A stretch of 45,312 bases of DNA from Bacteroidota bacterium. GTDB lineage: Bacteria > Bacteroidota > Ignavibacteria > Kryptoniales > JAKASW01. Below the pieces are notes generated by a model. It did no database searches and was not told the origin of the DNA. It saw only the letters and a list, made by a program, of their open reading frames with translations. Of this stretch, positions 18,731 through 26,143 are shown one piece after another. Made by a program: the position numbers and the translations under genes. The DNA lies in the NCBI GenBank assembly GCA_021794075.1, contig JAJYRM010000020.1, forward strand, positions 1 through 45,312. The letters are read 5' to 3'. How positions within the stretch are numbered: the first letter of the stretch is position 1; each line of letters starts with the position of its first letter.

Positions 18731-18774
18731 ACCCCGAAGCCTCAGCTTTTGTCAATTTAGAATATTTTCGGGGT
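18731..18774. other. inverted repeat between the GH38 gene and the cysteine operon promoter
   Basis: ACCCCGAA (18731-18738) and TTCGGGGT (18767-18774) are perfect complements around 28 bases, ending 6 bases before the -35 of the next promoter. There is no T run, so a terminator is doubtful. An operator dyad or 3'-end structure is possible. Confidence 0.4.
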
Positions 18775-18780
18775 TAAAGC

Positions 18781-18811
18781 TTGACAAAATAATCAAGTAT
18801 TTCTAACTTTT
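18781..18811 (+). promoter_or_regulatory. promoter of the cysteine/sulfite operon
   Basis: TTGACA at 18781-18786 and TAACTTTT at 18804-18811, with TTG-N20-TA spacing as in the other promoter here (9834). The predicted start lies within a few bases of the ATG at 18819, so the first reading frame would be nearly leaderless. Confidence 0.6.
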
Positions 18812-18818
18812 AGTCGTA

Positions 18819-18923
18819 ATGAGAAACCTTTTGCAGATACCCGGCGGAATGCGCTCCTGCGCCTGTTGTTGTTCCTGTATGACGACCGACTCGGTTTCGC
18901 GAAGGTGCGGGTCTTTGAGTTGA
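18819..18923 (+). CDS. cysteine-rich leader peptide (34 aa)
   Basis: An ATG-initiated frame of 34 codons, too short for ordinary gene calling. The peptide begins MRNLLQIPGGMRS and continues C-A-C-C-C-S-C at residues 14-20, with a sixth Cys at residue 30, ending at TGA (18921-18923). Six cysteines in 34 codons, five of them within seven, is far above chance. It precedes the operon that makes cysteine and ends 26 bases before a terminator-like hairpin. No ribosome site lies before it, but the promoter would make the transcript start at or just before the ATG. Ribosome stalling at Cys codons when charged Cys-tRNA is scarce would be the signal. Polycysteine leaderless leader ORFs acting as cysteine attenuators are known in mycobacteria; here it is inferred. 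Confidence 0.7.
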   Translation: MRNLLQIPGGMRSCACCCSCMTTDSVSRRCGSLS

Positions 18924-18949
18924 ACTAGAACCGCTAAATAAGATTTTTG

Positions 18950-18988
18950 AAGCCCTTCGTCGAACACCGGCGAAGGGCTTTTCATTTT
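18950..18988 (+). terminator. attenuator hairpin before the sulfite reductase gene
   Basis: AAGCCCTTCG (18950-18959) pairs perfectly with CGAAGGGCTT (18971-18980), followed by TTCATTTT up to the ATG at 18989. It is a terminator-like structure placed directly before the operon's first enzyme gene. The 3' arm also holds the only Shine-Dalgarno-like bases (AAGGG), so it could block translation as well. CGAAGG at 18900-18905, at the end of the leader peptide frame, can pair instead with CCTTCG at 18954-18959, a plausible antiterminator. Confidence 0.6.
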
Positions 18989-20824
18989 ATGGAGCTTCCC
19001 GGCATCGAGCTCAAAAGACATTCCGGGAAGGTCGTAGAGGAGGAGATTGAGTTGGACCTTAATGAAACGCAAACAAACTTGACGAGTATAGATACTGCCG
19101 AAGCTTACGCGGAAGACGCAGAGAAGATGAGGCGTGCAGTCTCGAGGGTTAAAACCGGGGAGATTTCCGAAGAGGAGTTCAAGAAGTTCAGGCTCCAACT
19201 CGGAATCTATGGACAGAGACCGGACCAGCAGGGGTTCAGCATGGTTCGCGTGAAGCTTCCTTACGGACTATTGACATCATCCCAAGTCCGTCAGGTCGGA
19301 AAAATCGCCAGAGATTTCGCGGACGGTATCGCGCACGTCACGACGAGACAGGACATCCAACTTCACTGGGTGAGACTAGAAAATGTCCCGGAGCTGATGG
19401 AGACGCTGAACGAAGTTGGTCTTACGACTCGTGAGGCGTGCGGAAATACAGTGCGCAACATAGTTGGATCTCCCCTTGCCGGAGTTTCCAGCGATGAGGC
19501 ATTCGACGTTACTCCGTATTCTCATCTCCTCGCTAAACATTTCCTGCGGAATGAATTAAGTCAGACCCTGCCGCGAAAATTCAAAATATCCTTCTCCGGG
19601 AGCGCGGACGAGCGCGACGCGATAATACCATGGATACATGACATCGGATACGTCGCGGACATGAGAAATATCGACGGCGCGGCGGTCCGGGGATTCAAAG
19701 TGTTCGTCGGCGGAGGACTCGGTGCCCAGCCGCGTGTTGCCGATGTACTCGAAGAGTTTCTCCCCGCGGAACTTCTGATTCCGACAACTGAGGCGATCGT
19801 GAAAGTTTTCAACGACCATGGAAACAGACAGATCAGATCGAAGGCGAGAATGAAGTATGTCTTATGGAAGCTGGGCTTTGAAGAATTCAAGCGGCTTGTA
19901 CGTGAGGAGAGGGAAAGGGTGCTTGCTTCAGGGAGAACATTTCCTGAGGCGGAGACAACTGAAGAAGAAGGATATCACCCGATATCTGATCCCGGAATTC
20001 CCCAAACTAAGGGTGATTCCGAGTTTAATCGCTGGCTTGGCTCCAACGTCTTTCCGCAAAGACAACGAGGCTATAACGCGGTATACGTGAACACTACCAT
20101 CGGCGATTTTACAGTAGACCAACTGTTTGAGCTGGGCAGGATAGCGGATAAATATACGAATGGAAGAATGCGTACGACAGCACAGCAGGATATTGTTCTG
20201 CGATGGATCAGATCGTCCGATATCGCTTCAATCTATAATGAGTTGAGACGTGTCGGCCTTCACCAGGCGGGCGCCCAAGAAATAGCAAACGTAACCTCCT
20301 GCCCCGGAGCTGACACGTGCAATCTCGGCATCACCCATTCACGAGCGCTTGGGAAAGAGCTGACTCAACTTCTTCACCGGCACCCCGACTGGAACACTCT
20401 CCTTAAAGGGCTCAGGATCAAGATAAGCGGTTGCCCGAATTCCTGTGGTCAACATCACATTGCCGCTATCGGATTTCATGGAGCGACGAAGAAGGTGGAC
20501 GGAGGTGAGATACCATCATACCTGCTTTCGATCGGCGGAGGGATGAATTCCGGCAAATATACTTTTGGTGGAACGCTCGGAAGAATACCGGCTCGTCACG
20601 CACCTGAGGCGGTAACGAGAATCATAAAGCGATACTTGTCAAACAGAACGGAGAGTGAAAATTTCTGGCAGTTTTGCGAACGAGTCGGGGTGCCGGCGTT
20701 TCGCGATGATATCAAAGACCTCGCGGACTTGCGTCCCGAGAAACTGACTAAGGATCTGTTTGTCGATCTCGGACAGGATAAACTTTTCGCGGCGGAGTCT
20801 GGCGAAGGGGAATGCGCAGCATGA
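18989..20824 (+). CDS. sir: sirohaem- and [4Fe-4S]-dependent ferredoxin-type sulfite/nitrite reductase
   Basis: Cytoplasmic enzyme of 611 aa that reduces sulfite to sulfide (or nitrite to ammonia) with six electrons. It has the duplicated ferrodoxin-like plus sirohaem-domain layout. The sirohaem/iron-sulfur cluster cysteines are Cys438 and Cys444 (TSCPGADTC) and Cys482 and Cys486 (SGCPNSCGQHH). RQDIQLHW in the first half and QQDIVLRWI in the second are the paired sirohaem-contact motifs. I take the ATG at 18989 rather than the TTG at 18947, which lies within the attenuator hairpin. Placement with cysG and a cysteine synthase argues for sulfite as the substrate. The following gene overlaps as ATGA. 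Confidence 0.9.
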   Translation: MELPGIELKRHSGKVVEEEIELDLNETQTNLTSIDTAEAYAEDAEKMRRAVSRVKTGEISEEEFKKFRLQLGIYGQRPDQQGFSMVRVKLPYGLLTSSQVRQVGKIARDFADGIAHVTTRQDIQLHWVRLENVPELMETLNEVGLTTREACGNTVRNIVGSPLAGVSSDEAFDVTPYSHLLAKHFLRNELSQTLPRKFKISFSGSADERDAIIPWIHDIGYVADMRNIDGAAVRGFKVFVGGGLGAQPRVADVLEEFLPAELLIPTTEAIVKVFNDHGNRQIRSKARMKYVLWKLGFEEFKRLVREERERVLASGRTFPEAETTEEEGYHPISDPGIPQTKGDSEFNRWLGSNVFPQRQRGYNAVYVNTTIGDFTVDQLFELGRIADKYTNGRMRTTAQQDIVLRWIRSSDIASIYNELRRVGLHQAGAQEIANVTSCPGADTCNLGITHSRALGKELTQLLHRHPDWNTLLKGLRIKISGCPNSCGQHHIAAIGFHGATKKVDGGEIPSYLLSIGGGMNSGKYTFGGTLGRIPARHAPEAVTRIIKRYLSNRTESENFWQFCERVGVPAFRDDIKDLADLRPEKLTKDLFVDLGQDKLFAAESGEGECAA

Positions 20825-21390
20825 TTAGTAAAGAGCGGACTACCTTCGCCGGATCCGCCGGGCGGATCTATACTATTCGTCGTATGGAAAGAGAGGAAAG
20901 ATTTTCAATCATCGACAGAATTGACAAAATGCCCTCGGTAAATCTTTCTCCGTCGCTCTGGTTCGAAATCAGTACATTGGCATCCGGAAATGGTGATGTC
21001 GCGCGAGCCTTTGCCGGTAGAAAAGAGTACGAGCACGTCTTTGCCGCGCTTCGCGCCGGTAAAATACTTTTGCGCCTCCAGCCACTATTAATAGTCGATG
21101 AAGATGAAGAGGCGGCTCTTGATGTTCCGGGCGAGGTGATCCTGAGAGACTTGAATGGAAAAAATATAGCGCTGATGCACCTTAGCGAGAAATTCAGGAT
21201 TGACGCCGATTATTTGAAGCTGATCGTCGAAAAGAACGAGGACTCGGATACTCTCATTCATGAGTACCTCCGTTGCGGCTATGGTCTAGCTATCGCGGGT
21301 GACATAGAGTTAGTAAGTACGGAGAAGGAGGCAAGTTCGGCTGGCCAGATGACGGAGCCCGCTGAGGCAAGGAAGGGGAGTGTGGAATGA
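20821..21390 (+). CDS. stand-alone ATP-sulfurylase N-terminal (PUA-like) domain protein
   Basis: A 189-aa protein starting at the ATG that overlaps the sir stop (ATGA); another ATG lies at 20812. The segment MPSVNLSPSLWFEISTLASG, an E-Y-x-x-V position (KEYEHVFAALR), then GEVILRDLNGKNIALMHL and EKFRIDADYL, and finally YGLAIAGDIELV follow in order the N-terminal domain of ATP sulfurylases (LPSWxLTxRQ, DYxxVV, ALRDxxGxxLAxLxVxxxWxxD, YxGGxVE). The catalytic domain with its HxGH motifs is absent and not found elsewhere in the window. The domain may therefore act as a regulatory or binding module for sulfur assimilation. The identification is by motif reading only. The CysG gene overlaps its stop (ATGA). 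Confidence 0.55.
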   Translation: MISKERTTFAGSAGRIYTIRRMEREERFSIIDRIDKMPSVNLSPSLWFEISTLASGNGDVARAFAGRKEYEHVFAALRAGKILLRLQPLLIVDEDEEAALDVPGEVILRDLNGKNIALMHLSEKFRIDADYLKLIVEKNEDSDTLIHEYLRCGYGLAIAGDIELVSTEKEASSAGQMTEPAEARKGSVE

Positions 21391-22853
21391 ACCGGTTATA
21401 TCCCATGTTTATGAAAATTTGCGGACAGCCTGTCCTCGTTGTGGGGGGAGGCAACGTCGGAGAGCAGAAAATAAGGAGCCTTCTTGAGTGCAGCGCGAGG
21501 GTTACCGTAATCTCTCCCACCGTCACTCCTTGGATTGAGGCCCGCTCGATTTCGTCAGAAGTTCTCCTGGAAAGGCGCGAGTATGCCGCCGGCGATGCGG
21601 CGGGCTACGTTCTAGTGATAGCGGCAACGAACGATCTTGCCGCGCAGAAGCAGATATATTCGGATGCCACTTCACTAAACATTCCTGTCAACGTCGCGGA
21701 CGAACCTGAGCTCTGCACGTTCTATCTCGGATCTGTGTTTCAGAAAGGCAATTTGAAAGTCGCTGTGTCTACCAACGGACTCAGTCCGACGACGGGGAAA
21801 ATTATCCGCGACAGGATCGCCAGGGAGTTTGGGATAAAATATCCTGAGCTCATAGACAGTGCCGGTAGGTTGCGATCGGGGATAAGAGAGGCGTTCCCGG
21901 ATTACGAAACTAGAAAGATGGTACAGGAGCAATATGTCGCCAGTGAACTCCGACGAACTGAAAAATATGATGAAACTGGAGATGAGCATCAGGAAGTGAA
22001 GGTCGGCAACAGAATTCCTGAAAATGAAGAATTCAAGATCGAAGCGCGAGTCTCGGGTAAAGTGTTCCTCGTAGGAGCCGGGCCCGGAGATCCGGAGCTG
22101 ATTTCGGTGAAAGGATTGCGGATACTGCGTTCGGCGGATGTCGTACTTTATGACGCGCTGGTTTGCGATGCGCTCCTCTCCGAAGCGTCGCATGACGCCG
22201 AAGTGCTCTACGTCGGAAAGAGGGCGGGATATTCATGCATGAAGCAGGAAGAGATTAACGGCATTCTCATTCGAAAGGCCCGCGAAGGGAAACGGGTCGT
22301 GAGGTTGAAGTGCGGTGATCCTTTTGTCTTTGGCCGGGGAGGAGAAGAATCAGATGTGCTTCAACGCGCGGGAATTGAAGTCGAGATCGTCCCCGGTATC
22401 ACCGCGGGCACGGGTGTGCCTGCCTCAATAGGGATCCCTCTCACGCATCGCAAAAACGCATCGAGCGTTCTCTTTGTGACAGGACACGAGGCCCCGCTGA
22501 AGGGGCAAGAGCGCGTCGACTGGGCTTCGGCCGCCCACGCCGACACGATTGTTATCTATATGGGAACGAGAAACCTTCATCATATCTCAGAACAACTGAC
22601 ATCCCACGGCGTGCCCGACTTCAAACCTGCCGCGGTAATATTCGGCGGTACTACCGATAATGAGAAGGTGGTTACGGGCACACTGGGAAACATTTCGGAC
22701 AGAGCGAGCGAGATCGAAACGGATCTCCCGGGACTTATTGTCATCGGTGAAACTGTCAAGTTTCTCTCTACCGGCATTGTTCGCCATACATCAACGCCCC
22801 AGGGCATCTCCGCACAAGAAAGGATATCTTATGTTGAGCAGCTATTTGTGTAG
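21387..22853 (+). CDS. cysG: fused sirohaem synthase (precorrin-2 dehydrogenase/ferrochelatase plus uroporphyrinogen-III methyltransferase)
   Basis: Makes the sirohaem cofactor for the sulfite reductase two genes upstream. Residues about 1-190 are the NAD-dependent dehydrogenase/ferrochelatase part (VLVVGGGNVGEQKI, with SPTVTPWIE and VNVADEPELCTFYLGS). A charged linker (about 195-222) leads to the SAM-dependent uroporphyrinogen-III methyltransferase (VFLVGAGPGDPELISVKG, VRLKCGDPFVFGRGGEE, PGITAGTGVPASIGIPLTHR, ending IVIGETVKF). At 488 aa it is slightly longer than Escherichia coli CysG. Its ATG overlaps the preceding stop and its 3' end overlaps the next small gene by 23 bases, so these genes are tightly coupled. 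Confidence 0.93.
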   Translation: MNRLYPMFMKICGQPVLVVGGGNVGEQKIRSLLECSARVTVISPTVTPWIEARSISSEVLLERREYAAGDAAGYVLVIAATNDLAAQKQIYSDATSLNIPVNVADEPELCTFYLGSVFQKGNLKVAVSTNGLSPTTGKIIRDRIAREFGIKYPELIDSAGRLRSGIREAFPDYETRKMVQEQYVASELRRTEKYDETGDEHQEVKVGNRIPENEEFKIEARVSGKVFLVGAGPGDPELISVKGLRILRSADVVLYDALVCDALLSEASHDAEVLYVGKRAGYSCMKQEEINGILIRKAREGKRVVRLKCGDPFVFGRGGEESDVLQRAGIEVEIVPGITAGTGVPASIGIPLTHRKNASSVLFVTGHEAPLKGQERVDWASAAHADTIVIYMGTRNLHHISEQLTSHGVPDFKPAAVIFGGTTDNEKVVTGTLGNISDRASEIETDLPGLIVIGETVKFLSTGIVRHTSTPQGISAQERISYVEQLFV

Positions 22854-23121
22854 TGTGGATGGATGCGCCGGCGAGTGCGCGGCGCGCGGTCTTTGCTGGA
22901 AACATTACATGAGATTTCGTAGGTACGGGAATGTGTCGTTTCAAAAACGTCGCTACCGGAAATCGCCGAAGTGCCGCTACTGCGGTGTTAGAAACCCCGA
23001 TGCTTTTTATCCGCAGTACAAGAGTATCTGCAAAGGGTGCAAGAAGCTGCGAGCAGTAAACAGGCAAAGGGCGGTGTTCGTTTCGCAAGTGGCGGCGGCC
23101 CATCATAAGGTGGAGGCGTGA
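22831..23121 (+). CDS. small double zinc-ribbon protein
   Basis: A 96-aa basic protein. The ATG at 22831 follows AAGAAAGGAT and starts inside the end of cysG. The first cluster is C7-x4-C12-x3-C16-x5-C22-x2-H25, resembling the CxxxxC...GLCWKHYMRFRRYGN zinc motif found in phage and HNH-associated proteins. The second is C48-x2-C51-x15-C67-x2-C70, a treble-clef-like ribbon (CRYCG...CKGC). Arg and Lys are abundant between them, as expected for nucleic-acid binding. Its stop overlaps the next gene's GTG region, and RBS-like GGAGG in its tail serves the cysteine synthase. A regulator that senses Zn or thiol status of the operon is possible but unproven. Confidence 0.7.
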   Translation: MLSSYLCSVDGCAGECAARGLCWKHYMRFRRYGNVSFQKRRYRKSPKCRYCGVRNPDAFYPQYKSICKGCKKLRAVNRQRAVFVSQVAAAHHKVEA

Positions 23122-23123
23122 GC

Positions 23124-24143
23124 ATGCGTCGGTATCTGGATCGGACTGGAGAATCTCGTTTTGATCAGGAGTTCGCGGAATTAGGTGAATCTGGCAGAGA
23201 TTCCATTCTCTCTCACATAGGCAATACACCGCTTGTCCGCATCAGGAGAGTCACAGAAGGAATCGATAGAGTCGCGGTTTTCGCGAAGGCTGAATGGTTC
23301 AATCCCGGAGGTTCCGTCAAGGATAGGGCCGCATTTGCCATGATCCGTGAGGCGGAACTGTCCGGCGCGCTCACCAGGGACAAAACAATAATCGACGCGA
23401 CGAGCGGGAATACCGGTATTGCTTACGCCATGATAGGAAGCGCGCTTGGCTATCGTGTTGTTCTTGCTCTCCCTTCCAACGCGAGCACGGAAAGAAAGGC
23501 GGCGCTTCGCGCATACGGTGCGGAAGTAATCCTGACGGATCCACTTAGTGGTACAGATGGGGCCCAGCAACGCGTAAAGAAGATAGTCGCTGCGGAGCCC
23601 AGTAAATATTTCTATCCGGATCAATATAGCAATCCGGCCAACTGGCTTGCGCATTACAGGACGACAGGGCCCGAAATATGGGAGCAATCGGAACACAGCA
23701 TCACGCACTTCGTGGCGGGGCTTGGGACGACCGGGACATTCATCGGTACATCGCGCCGATTAAAGGAGTTCAACCCTGACATACGCTGCGTGTCGTTTCA
23801 GCCCGACTCGCCTCTACACGGCCTGGAAGGTTTGAAACATCTCGGCACTTCTATAGTGCCGGGTATCTATGACGAATCTGTCGCGGACGAGGAGCTCACT
23901 ATCTCCACGGAAGATGCCTATGAGATGGCCAGAAGGCTGGCCCGCGAAGAAGGGCTGTTCGTCGGTATATCGAGCGGGGCCGCGATGGCCGCCTCGCTGA
24001 AACTTGCCCGCGATATCGAATCGGGCCTCATTGTGACCGTCTTTGCGGACAGCGGTGCCCGCTACGGATCGGAGCTTTTCGAAGTTGATGGCCGTGAGCA
24101 AAGTACGAGGAATGCCGGCCTTGAGGATCAGAGGAATGACTGA
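23124..24143 (+). CDS. cysM: CysM-type cysteine synthase
   Basis: PLP enzyme of 339 aa forming cysteine from an activated serine and a sulfur donor. The PLP Lys is Lys66 in NPGGSVKDRAA. The phosphate loop reads TSGNTGIAYA. The C-terminal GISSGAAMAASL matches the cofactor-binding end of the family. I chose ATG 23124 because GGAGG ends 7 bases upstream; the GTG at 23118 would be too close. In actinobacterial pathways, CysM accepts sulfur from a protein thiocarboxylate (CysO) rather than free sulfide. The next two genes encode a JAMM peptidase and a fused carrier/E1, so the same donor is likely here. Donor specificity is inferred from context. Confidence 0.87.
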   Translation: MRRYLDRTGESRFDQEFAELGESGRDSILSHIGNTPLVRIRRVTEGIDRVAVFAKAEWFNPGGSVKDRAAFAMIREAELSGALTRDKTIIDATSGNTGIAYAMIGSALGYRVVLALPSNASTERKAALRAYGAEVILTDPLSGTDGAQQRVKKIVAAEPSKYFYPDQYSNPANWLAHYRTTGPEIWEQSEHSITHFVAGLGTTGTFIGTSRRLKEFNPDIRCVSFQPDSPLHGLEGLKHLGTSIVPGIYDESVADEELTISTEDAYEMARRLAREEGLFVGISSGAAMAASLKLARDIESGLIVTVFADSGARYGSELFEVDGREQSTRNAGLEDQRND

Positions 24144-24572
24144 ATGGTGAGAATCTCTAAAGAACTGGCGAAGAACATCGAAGATCACGGAAGACAATGC
24201 TACCCGGAGGAATGTTGCGGGATAATGATTGGAAGAAGGGTCGGCGAACTCCGTATTGTTGGCGGCACGTTTGAATTGGACAACAGCCAGGAGGAAAACC
24301 GCAAGAGAAGGTTCTTTGTGACTCCGAAAGAGTATATGCGTGCCGAGAAAGTCGCTGCCGAAAATGGCATGGAACTCCTCGGCTTCTATCATTCTCACCC
24401 CGACCATCCTGCTATACCGTCAGAGTACGACAGGGAACACGCGCTTCCGTGGTTCACTTACATTGTGCTTGCGGTCGCAAAAGGAGAGCCTAAAGTGATG
24501 ACCGCCTGGGAGCTTTCAGAATCGAGAGATAGGTTCCTGGAAAAACATCTATCGGTAGAGCAGAGTCTGTGA
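24144..24572 (+). CDS. mec: JAMM/M67 metallopeptidase (Mec-like)
   Basis: A 142-aa zinc peptidase of the JAB1/MPN/Mov34 family. The catalytic Glu is in PEECCG (residues 21-26), and the JAMM core is H83-S-H85-P, Ser93, Asp96 (HSHPDHPAIPSEYD), with the exact spacing H-x-H-x7-S-x2-D. Mec in mycobacteria releases cysteine from the C-terminus of the sulfur carrier CysO, and JAMM enzymes also trim C-terminal residues off ubiquitin-like carriers. It starts directly after the CysM stop, with GAGGAATG upstream. Because the carrier in the next gene is fused, a second role in cutting after the internal Gly-Gly is attractive. The ORF ends 119 bases before that gene's start. Confidence 0.88.
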   Translation: MVRISKELAKNIEDHGRQCYPEECCGIMIGRRVGELRIVGGTFELDNSQEENRKRRFFVTPKEYMRAEKVAAENGMELLGFYHSHPDHPAIPSEYDREHALPWFTYIVLAVAKGEPKVMTAWELSESRDRFLEKHLSVEQSL

Positions 24573-24691
24573 AGGCTCTCTGAAGTCGAGACTAACGTCG
24601 AACGGCATTGCGCTATTCGATTGAATTTTTCGTTTGCCACTACGTCGCAGGTTGGCATCGGTTTTCAGATATAAAAATGAGGAAAAATAAA

Positions 24692-26143
24692 ATGGCAATT
24701 AAAGTGCTAATCCCTACTCCGCTTCGCCCTTTCACCGATAGAAGGGACACGATCGAAGTTGAAGGGACTACGGTCGGGGAGGTCCTGGAAAATCTAACTT
24801 CCGAGTTCAGTCAAATAAAGCAGCATCTCTATTCGGATGACGGTACTTTCAGGAGCTACGTGAACATTTACGTGAACGATGAAGACATAAGATACCTGGC
24901 CAGGGAAAAGACCGCAGTTAGCGAAAAGGACACAATAAGCATTATTCCTTCGATAGCCGGAGGGGTGGACGTGGATATGCCGGAGGTCGAGAGCGAAACA
25001 CAACTTTCGAATGACGAGGTACTGCGTTACAGCAGGCACCTGATAATTCCCGAGGTCGGTATGGATGGGCAGAAGCGACTCAAAGCCGGCAGAGTGTTAA
25101 TGATAGGAGCCGGCGGACTTGGCTCTCCTGTAGGCATGTATCTTGCCGCCGCTGGAGTAGGGAAGATAGGGATTGTCGATTTCGATGTGGTCGACAAGAC
25201 AAATCTTCAGCGGCAAATTCTCCACTCGACGCAGGACATTGGCAGGGCTAAGCTCGATTCCGCGCGTGAGAAGCTCGAAGGTATTAACCCCAACATATCC
25301 ATCGAGACGTACGAAACCAGGCTTTCGTCTGATAACGCGCTGGAGCTCTTCGCCGATTATGACGTTGTGGTGGACGGCACAGACAATTTCCCGACAAGGT
25401 ATCTTGTCAACGACGCTTGCGTTCTCCTGGGGAAGCCGAACGTGTACGGTTCAATACTTCGGTTTGAAGGCCAGGTCAGCGTCTTTGATTCAAAGCGAGG
25501 CCCGTGTTACCGGTGTCTTTATCCGGCTCCACCTCCTCCGGGATTGGTGCCGAGCTGCGCTGAGGGCGGTGTGCTCGGAGTGCTTCCGGGAATTATCGGC
25601 ACCCTACAAGCGCTCGAGGTCATTAAGCTCCTTCTAAACGAGGGGGACACTTTGATTGGAAGGCTTGTCCTGTTCGACGCCCTAAAGTTCAAATTCCGCG
25701 AGCTGAAGCTCAGAAAAAATCCCGAGTGTCCAATATGTGGTATCGACCCGACGATACATTCTTTGATAGACTACGAACAGTTCTGCGGGATAAGCGGAGG
25801 CGCCGTATCCGAACCGGCAATCGACGAGCGGACTGAGATAACAGTGGAACAGTTGAAAGCCCGTCTCGATAACGGACAGAAGCCGTTCATGTTGGACGTT
25901 CGGGAACCGCGCGAATACGAAATTGTTAATCTTGGTGCGCGCCTGATTCCTCTGTCGGAACTGCCGAAGAGGTTCAAAGAGCTCGATCCATCTGAAGAGA
26001 TAGTGGTACACTGCAAGATGGGAGGGCGAAGCGCCAAGGCGGCTGCATTCCTGAGGCAACAGGGTTTCACGAACGTGAAGAATCTTGTCGGAGGAATCGA
26101 CGCCTGGATTAACAAGATAAATCCGAACCTGCCTCGATATTAG
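24692..26143 (+). CDS. moeB: fused ubiquitin-like sulfur carrier, E1-like adenylyltransferase and rhodanese
   Basis: A 483-aa three-domain protein. The start at ATG 24692 follows GAGGA 8 bases upstream. Residues 1-91 are a MoaD/ThiS/CysO-like beta-grasp carrier ending IPSIAGG (Gly90-Gly91). A linker VDVDMPEVESETQ (92-104) joins it to a MoeB/ThiF E1 domain: glycine-rich loop GAGGLGS at 139-145, ending of the adenylation site with DGTDNFPTRYL, and zinc Cys pairs CYRC and CPIC. A C-terminal rhodanese domain has the active Cys441 in HCKMGGRS. E1 would adenylate a carrier C-terminus and the rhodanese would supply sulfur. The Gly-Gly is internal, so cleavage seems needed before charging, unless the fused carrier works in another way. 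The adjacent JAMM peptidase is the obvious candidate. Confidence 0.9.
   Translation: MAIKVLIPTPLRPFTDRRDTIEVEGTTVGEVLENLTSEFSQIKQHLYSDDGTFRSYVNIYVNDEDIRYLAREKTAVSEKDTISIIPSIAGGVDVDMPEVESETQLSNDEVLRYSRHLIIPEVGMDGQKRLKAGRVLMIGAGGLGSPVGMYLAAAGVGKIGIVDFDVVDKTNLQRQILHSTQDIGRAKLDSAREKLEGINPNISIETYETRLSSDNALELFADYDVVVDGTDNFPTRYLVNDACVLLGKPNVYGSILRFEGQVSVFDSKRGPCYRCLYPAPPPPGLVPSCAEGGVLGVLPGIIGTLQALEVIKLLLNEGDTLIGRLVLFDALKFKFRELKLRKNPECPICGIDPTIHSLIDYEQFCGISGGAVSEPAIDERTEITVEQLKARLDNGQKPFMLDVREPREYEIVNLGARLIPLSELPKRFKELDPSEEIVVHCKMGGRSAKAAAFLRQQGFTNVKNLVGGIDAWINKINPNLPRY

Follow-up and report, generated by a model that had tools for sequence, protein, structure and literature searches.

In the attenuators of the trp, his, leu, and thr operons of Escherichia coli, a leader ORF with regulatory codons is combined with an antiterminator and an intrinsic terminator that are mutually exclusive. 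In Firmicutes, T-box and SAM-I (S-box) elements control the genes of cysteine and methionine through premature termination at the level of the RNA. Polycysteine ORFs were first predicted in mycobacteria in 2005; their Cys codons lie close to the stop, and no terminator was found (PMC1262725). Shell et al. (2015; PMC4633059) considered cysteine homeostasis or redox in connection with the mycobacterial Cys uORFs, and the study of Canestrari (2020; doi 10.1111/mmi.14498), as far as it is represented in PMC9031893 and PMC13236596, assigns the polycysteine uORF of M. smegmatis to translational control. Leader-peptide attenuation has been suggested in general for the amino-acid operons of Flavobacterium psychrophilum (PMC9723704). 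A literature search that left out most subscription papers brought up no cysteine attenuator described before in the phylum of the present locus; a preliminary description of the DNA had stated that none was known to its author from this phylum, and this holds for cysteine within the searchable literature, with the general suggestion for Flavobacterium set beside it.

The locus considered here lies in a window (the whole stretch of DNA that was analyzed, 45,312 nucleotides) in which a leader ORF with a run of Cys codons precedes an operon that begins with a sulfite reductase gene, sir. We interpret the leader as a ribosome-mediated attenuator of transcription with charged tRNA-Cys as its signal and place the probability of this interpretation at about 0.88, in the absence of expression, 5'-end, or ribosome-profiling data for the organisms concerned, most of which are uncultured. 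RNA polymerase would start a few nucleotides 5' of the leader ATG, and the ribosome would load without a Shine-Dalgarno sequence. When Cys-tRNA is plentiful, the ribosome is expected to cross the Cys codons and the 3' segment of the ORF during synthesis of the terminator arm; the passing ribosome would occlude the antiterminator, the terminator would form, and transcription would end before sir. When Cys-tRNA is scarce, the ribosome would stall on the Cys codons and leave the downstream segment free to pair with the emerging 5' arm and loop of the terminator, and the polymerase would enter sir-cysG-cysM-mec-moeB. The role of tRNA-Cys as the signal and the regulatory outcome, including read-through when the charged tRNA is scarce, are inferences. 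The sequence itself shows which parts make up the leader, that they are conserved, that the alternative pairing co-varies, and that such leaders are associated with cysteine genes.

Features of the leader and the start of sir

The positions given in the preliminary description for the promoter (TTGACA, a 17-bp spacer, and TAACTT) and for the 34-codon frame with the motif C-A-C-C-C-S-C agree with the sequence (Table 1). Of the window's 630 short ORFs, this frame is the densest in Cys, with 5 of 7 residues as compared with 3 of 7 in the runner-up, and its Shine-Dalgarno score is 2 of 6, in contrast to the perfect AGGAGG of sir. The terminator-like hairpin, previously described as having 10 bp, is real but larger, with 14 pairs and a z score of −7.1 against shuffled sequences. 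Similarly, the complementarity that had been noted between CGAAGG (18900-18905) and CCTTCG (18954-18959) is correct but makes up only part of a much longer antiterminator, in which 17 pairs, not 6, are predicted between 18891-18908 and the 5' arm and loop of the terminator. The antiterminator has an energy of −23.6 kcal/mol as a duplex and of −25.1 kcal/mol when the stretch is folded without the terminator 3' arm, as compared with −24.3 kcal/mol for the terminator hairpin; the two are mutually exclusive because they share the 5' arm. In a search of the window against Rfam, no family reached its curated covariance-model threshold, and the sole match in ten further loci was a tRNA.

Table 1. Predicted features of the leader and operon, in window coordinates
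Feature	Position	Strand	Basis
Possible operator (conserved upstream element TTGTCAATTTAGAA)	18749-18762	+	Copy count; kept upstream of other leaders
−35 element TTGACA	18781-18786	+	Sequence; conserved in cassette
−10 element TAACTT	18804-18809	+	17-bp spacer from −35
Predicted transcription start	about 18815-18817	+	2-4 nt 5' of leader ATG
Leader ORF MRNLLQIPGGMRSCACCCSCMTTDSVSRRCGSLS, 34 codons	18819-18923 (ATG 18819; TGA 18921-18923)	+	Corresponding ORFs in all relatives
Regulatory codons C-A-C-C-C-S-C	18858-18878	+	Cys run kept with TGT/TGC exchange
Antiterminator strand TCGGTTTCGCGAAGGTGC	18891-18908	+	Pairs with 18952-18970; RNA conserved; co-varies in wider set
Intrinsic terminator hairpin, 14 pairs	18949-18981; T-rich tract to 18988	+	Folding; compensatory changes
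Shine-Dalgarno AGGAGG of sir	19038-19043	+	Sequence
NirA/Sir-family sulfite reductase hemoprotein, TTG start (most likely)	19052-20824	+	NCBIfam NF007126, E = 2e-82, under its curated cut-off
PUA_2 domain protein, resembles ATP-sulfurylase N terminus	20812-21390	+	Domain search
CysG siroheme synthase	21387-22853	+	NF007922, over curated cut-off
CysM-type cysteine synthase	23118-24143	+	TIGR01138/TIGR01136
JAB/JAMM protease, Mec-like	24144-24572	+	PF14464
MoaD/ThiS - MoeB - rhodanese fusion (CysO/MoeZ-like sulfur carrier activation)	24680-26143	+	

The 192-residue PUA_2 protein between sir and cysG corresponds only to the PUA-like N-terminal domain of ATP sulfurylase, and a 96-residue Cys-rich, zinc-finger-like ORF without a Pfam match lies between cysG and cysM (22831-23121).

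The hairpin had also been said to abut the ATG of sir, and this does not stand. The ATG at 18989 is missing in the closest relative (L022), which has ACG there and a 1-nt frame change before the gene; position 19052, after the AGGAGG, is occupied by TTG or GTG in the close relatives, and others have an ATG nearby. From these comparisons, the start of sir is most likely TTG 19052 and not ATG 18989. The end of the terminator hairpin is about 57 nt from the Shine-Dalgarno sequence, which is the usual place for the terminator of an attenuator, and the ribosome-binding site is not hidden. These distances bear on the possibility of translational attenuation, in which the leader would control the ribosome-binding site of the first gene and the hairpin would not be a terminator. 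The leaderless polycysteine uORFs of mycobacteria act in this way according to PMC9031893 and PMC13236596, and in one genome of the present set (G152) an additional ORF led by a Shine-Dalgarno sequence ends in ACACCC directly before the operon. However, the hairpin ends in a U tract, the AGGAGG of sir takes no part in it, and the location of the terminator well 5' of TTG 19052 fits transcription attenuation better than translational control; also, the distance from terminator to gene differs widely between loci, so that sequestration of the ribosome-binding site cannot be general. We consider translational attenuation very improbable, and the suggestion in the preliminary description that AAGGG might be freed for translation is not supported, the Shine-Dalgarno sequence of sir being outside the hairpin.

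Conservation and co-variation among related leaders

Nine copies of sir with upstream DNA were compared within the genus (the window, L003, L004, L005, L006, L007, L008, L012, and L022), together with two diverged copies from Ignavibacteria (L026 and L027), a total of 11 sir leaders. The cassette consisting of a promoter, near-leaderless ORF, Cys run, downstream element, and terminator precedes sir in all nine genus copies and in both diverged ones. The leader ORFs in the sir relatives have 34-38 codons and contain C-A-C-C-C; the Cys run is kept with exchange of TGT and TGC and with variable length while the flanking residues change, and it usually ends 13-18 codons 5' of the stop codon. The preliminary description had recommended that relatives be searched for conserved Cys codons and for compensatory changes in the hairpins, and had named a lack of conservation of the Cys run or hairpin as grounds for refutation. 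Both are conserved in every relative examined, the antiterminator/terminator pairing co-varies, and terminator pairs are kept by compensatory change, results that support its proposal that stalling at the Cys codons would free the 3' segment of the ORF to break the terminator. In sir relatives from other phyla (L028-L045), no comparable leader was found just upstream.

The leader ORFs of the window's genus have no Shine-Dalgarno sequence. The end of the best −10 match is located 4-16 nt before the ATG in 27 of the 36 leaders analyzed and 8-13 nt before it in 24, so that a 5' UTR of about 1-6 nt is predicted; no 5' ends have been mapped, and both the transcription start and near-leaderless initiation remain inferred.

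Clusters of Cys codons are present in all 36 leaders, but their patterns differ (CACCC, CPCCC, CCC, CCCC, CCNNC, and CACWC). This variation is relevant to a mechanism in which arrest of the ribosome is due not to codon starvation but to the nascent Cys-rich peptide itself, acting as a sensor of metal, the Fe-S state, or thiol redox. A C-x-C-C-C motif could bind metal, and Shell et al. weighed redox as well as cysteine homeostasis for the mycobacterial uORFs (PMC4633059), but in the present leaders the number and spacing of the Cys residues vary, the flanking residues are not conserved, and the genes that follow serve to make cysteine or to provide its sulfur and are not genes of metal homeostasis. 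Sensing by the peptide appears very improbable. The downstream element of the genus, TTTCGCGAAGG, is kept as nucleotides although some leaders read it as ..SVSRRC.. and others as ..FREGVGP, and a similar frame switch is found inside one family (L079 and L080); selection therefore acts on the RNA and not on the peptide. For practical purposes, the possibility of a small, functional Cys-rich protein that has a terminator of its own and no switch can be set aside. The ORF is indeed conserved and its translation is possible, but there is no conservation of the peptide beyond the Cys run, the C-terminal third of the peptide is read in different frames from an RNA that stays the same, and the antiterminator co-varies.

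The reading as a transcription attenuator draws on the alternative pairing across a wider set of leaders. In 28 of 34, the antiterminator pairs better with its own terminator arm than with the mean of swapped partners (Wilcoxon p = 5e-7), and the combined p for pairing against shuffles across the 34 is about 4e-28; it should be recognized that these values are optimistic because the leaders are phylogenetically related. Pairs that are completely re-sequenced yet complementary are found in L084 (14 bp; CTATTCTGGTGAGG with CCTTCACCAGAATAG), L117, L081, and L124. Within the 11 sir leaders, the terminator has 5 double-change cells, compared with 1.3 in shuffles, but the antiterminator core has one double change only, so that the strong evidence for co-variation of the antiterminator comes from the wider set. 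The pairing is not clearly above shuffles in L083, L118, L121, and L130. Outside the class, L149, L152, and one leader of L153 have a pairing that exceeds the shuffles, and the other GC-rich leaders do not clearly have one.

Modeled effects of ribosome position

The effect of ribosome position is known only from modeling. Equilibrium folding of the full-length RNA always yields the terminator, which is also the case for the window leader; this folding is consequently no test of the switch, which would have to act during transcription. The RNA was instead folded before the terminator 3' arm is made, with a 30-nt ribosome footprint masked along the leader. The modeled probability of the antiterminator has a median of 0.73 with the A site on the Cys run, about 0 beyond it, and 0.003 at the stop codon, and it is higher in the stalled state than at the stop in 34 of the 36 leaders. 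For the window leader, it is 0.82 when the ribosome is stalled, reaches a minimum of 0.07 while the ribosome crosses the element, and is 0.51 at the stop. The preliminary description had a ribosome at the TGA covering the antiterminator; in the window leader, such a ribosome covers only the 3' end of the antiterminator, and the modeled probability falls from 0.82 to 0.51. Since the value is still 0.51 at the stop, the antiterminator must in this model be blocked by transit through the element as well as by arrival at the stop. In about one-third of the leaders, the window leader not being among them, competition from the 5' part of the ORF, comparable to the classical 1:2 hairpin, makes the probability low in the absence of a ribosome. 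L004, L008, L026, L027, and L082 are among the leaders in which the antiterminator is modeled to stay mostly sequestered even when the ribosome is stalled.

Distribution, layered control, and comparison with known systems

An unbiased pattern of three Cys codons, 58-88 nt, and a hairpin GCCCYT ... ARGGGYTTT was scanned for in 391 genomes of the class and matched at 36 distinct places in 33 genomes, as compared with 3 matches for a reversed-pattern control. Genes of cysteine or sulfur metabolism follow 31 of the 36 places, directly downstream (next but one in G355); the genes include sir, cysK (10 genomes), cysM-mec-moeB, SAT-cysK, cysH, and OAH/OAS sulfhydrylase. Among the other five, one is before OsmC, one is before an unidentified gene, and three are due to chance. 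The matches rejected as chance, in G147, G362, and G130, have no leader. A polycysteine ORF in G037 (L130) is followed by an unidentified 183-residue gene product. The place before OsmC is the second polycysteine leader of the window's genome (L117, G000:C128:18500-22500), which precedes an OsmC-family gene. An OsmC gene is also present inside the OAH sulfhydrylase operon of L086. A covariance model, R1, gave many weak matches across the class (<50 bits), including ordinary AAGCCCTT terminators, and the matches used were those of at least 65 bits plus four weaker ones in which the polycysteine ORF was confirmed by reading (L083-L086). Among the leaders outside the class, those of Rhodothermus-like genomes stand before a uroporphyrinogen methyltransferase gene (L152) and before a cysM-mec operon, and others precede cysM in G414, the gene of a sulfurtransferase in G624, and SAT in G534, where the leader has 15 codons only; one leader-bearing genome outside the class (G397) is probably Rhodothermus marinus. 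On comparison of these loci, the same putative switch precedes most kinds of cysteine genes across the class and, more sparsely, elsewhere in the phylum.

At some loci, the leader is accompanied by other elements. In three genomes (L086 at 950-1390, L120, and L125; family f22), a SAM-I riboswitch (65-74 bits) lies between the Cys attenuator and an OAH/OAS sulfhydrylase gene; by eye, the riboswitch of L086 has its own terminator-like hairpin, which is unlisted by a simple scan. The 14-mer TTGWCAATTYAGAA has three copies in the 4.5-Mb genome of the window, one in the window (Table 1) and the others at G000:C128:21852-21865 and 20662-20675, and two of these are upstream of the two polycysteine leaders of this genome. 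The upstream element is also found before the leaders in L003, L004, L008, L012, L026, L027, and L082, which suggests a possible operator for an additional, putative DNA-binding regulator. In G152 (L085:781-1079), the attenuator is followed by an extra polycysteine ORF, led by a Shine-Dalgarno sequence and ending MRACACCC at the stop, as in the mycobacterial layout; this ORF precedes a DUF2061 gene and then genes of the PAPS-reductase family and a GTPase (cysH/cysD/cysN-type).

A broader interpretation is that near-leaderless polycysteine transcription attenuators define a cysteine regulon across the Bacteroidota, often layered with further sensors, whether an upstream DNA operator, a SAM-I riboswitch in tandem ahead of OAH/OAS sulfhydrylase, or another polycysteine ORF; near-leaderless initiation would be intrinsic to the timing, and the parallel with mycobacteria, including the cysM-mec-sulfur carrier operons, would be achieved by a different RNA mechanism. 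The balance for and against this wider interpretation is even. If the attenuator is confirmed, it would be, to the extent that our search could show, the first terminator/antiterminator attenuator specific for cysteine to be supported by comparison. Cysteine regulation in this phylum is poorly known, and the leader would mark a regulon of sir, cysK, cysM-mec-moeB, SAT, cysH-cysDN, OAH sulfhydrylase, and OsmC that includes tandem control by cysteine and SAM. The switch is probably testable in a cultivated organism.

The suggestion of leader-peptide attenuation for F. psychrophilum concerns the same phylum and amino-acid operons but is a general one, and no cysteine leader is named in the accessible part of PMC9723704. 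The mycobacterial leaderless attenuators resemble the present leaders in having a Cys run in a short, (near-)leaderless ORF that precedes cysteine operons and responds to the supply of cysteine, a response that, like the near-leaderless start, is inferred here, and this suggests that two distant phyla use near-leaderless polycysteine ORFs for the same pathway; common descent is not claimed. The mycobacterial Cys run is near the stop codon, whereas that of the sir leaders usually ends 13-18 codons earlier, and Cys codons that adjoin the stop are found here only in the extra ORF of G152. In the mycobacterial leaders, moreover, no terminator was found (PMC1262725) and translational control is reported, in contrast to the conserved intrinsic terminator and antiterminator found here, for which regulation itself is inferred. 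The T-box and SAM-I elements share with these leaders the premature termination before genes of the same pathway, and SAM-I is in tandem with them in three loci, but the present leader would be read by the ribosome and not by binding of tRNA or a metabolite. The trp, his, leu, and thr attenuators of E. coli have the same layout of leader ORF, regulatory codons, antiterminator, and terminator. The differences are that the amino acid is cysteine, that the ORF is near-leaderless and without a Shine-Dalgarno sequence, that the antiterminator strand is mostly inside the leader ORF, 5' of the stop codon, and that competition resembling the 1:2 hairpin is modeled in some members only. On comparative evidence that is broad and gives good support, although without experiment, the device would work in the manner of the trp/his attenuators, cysteine being the signal.
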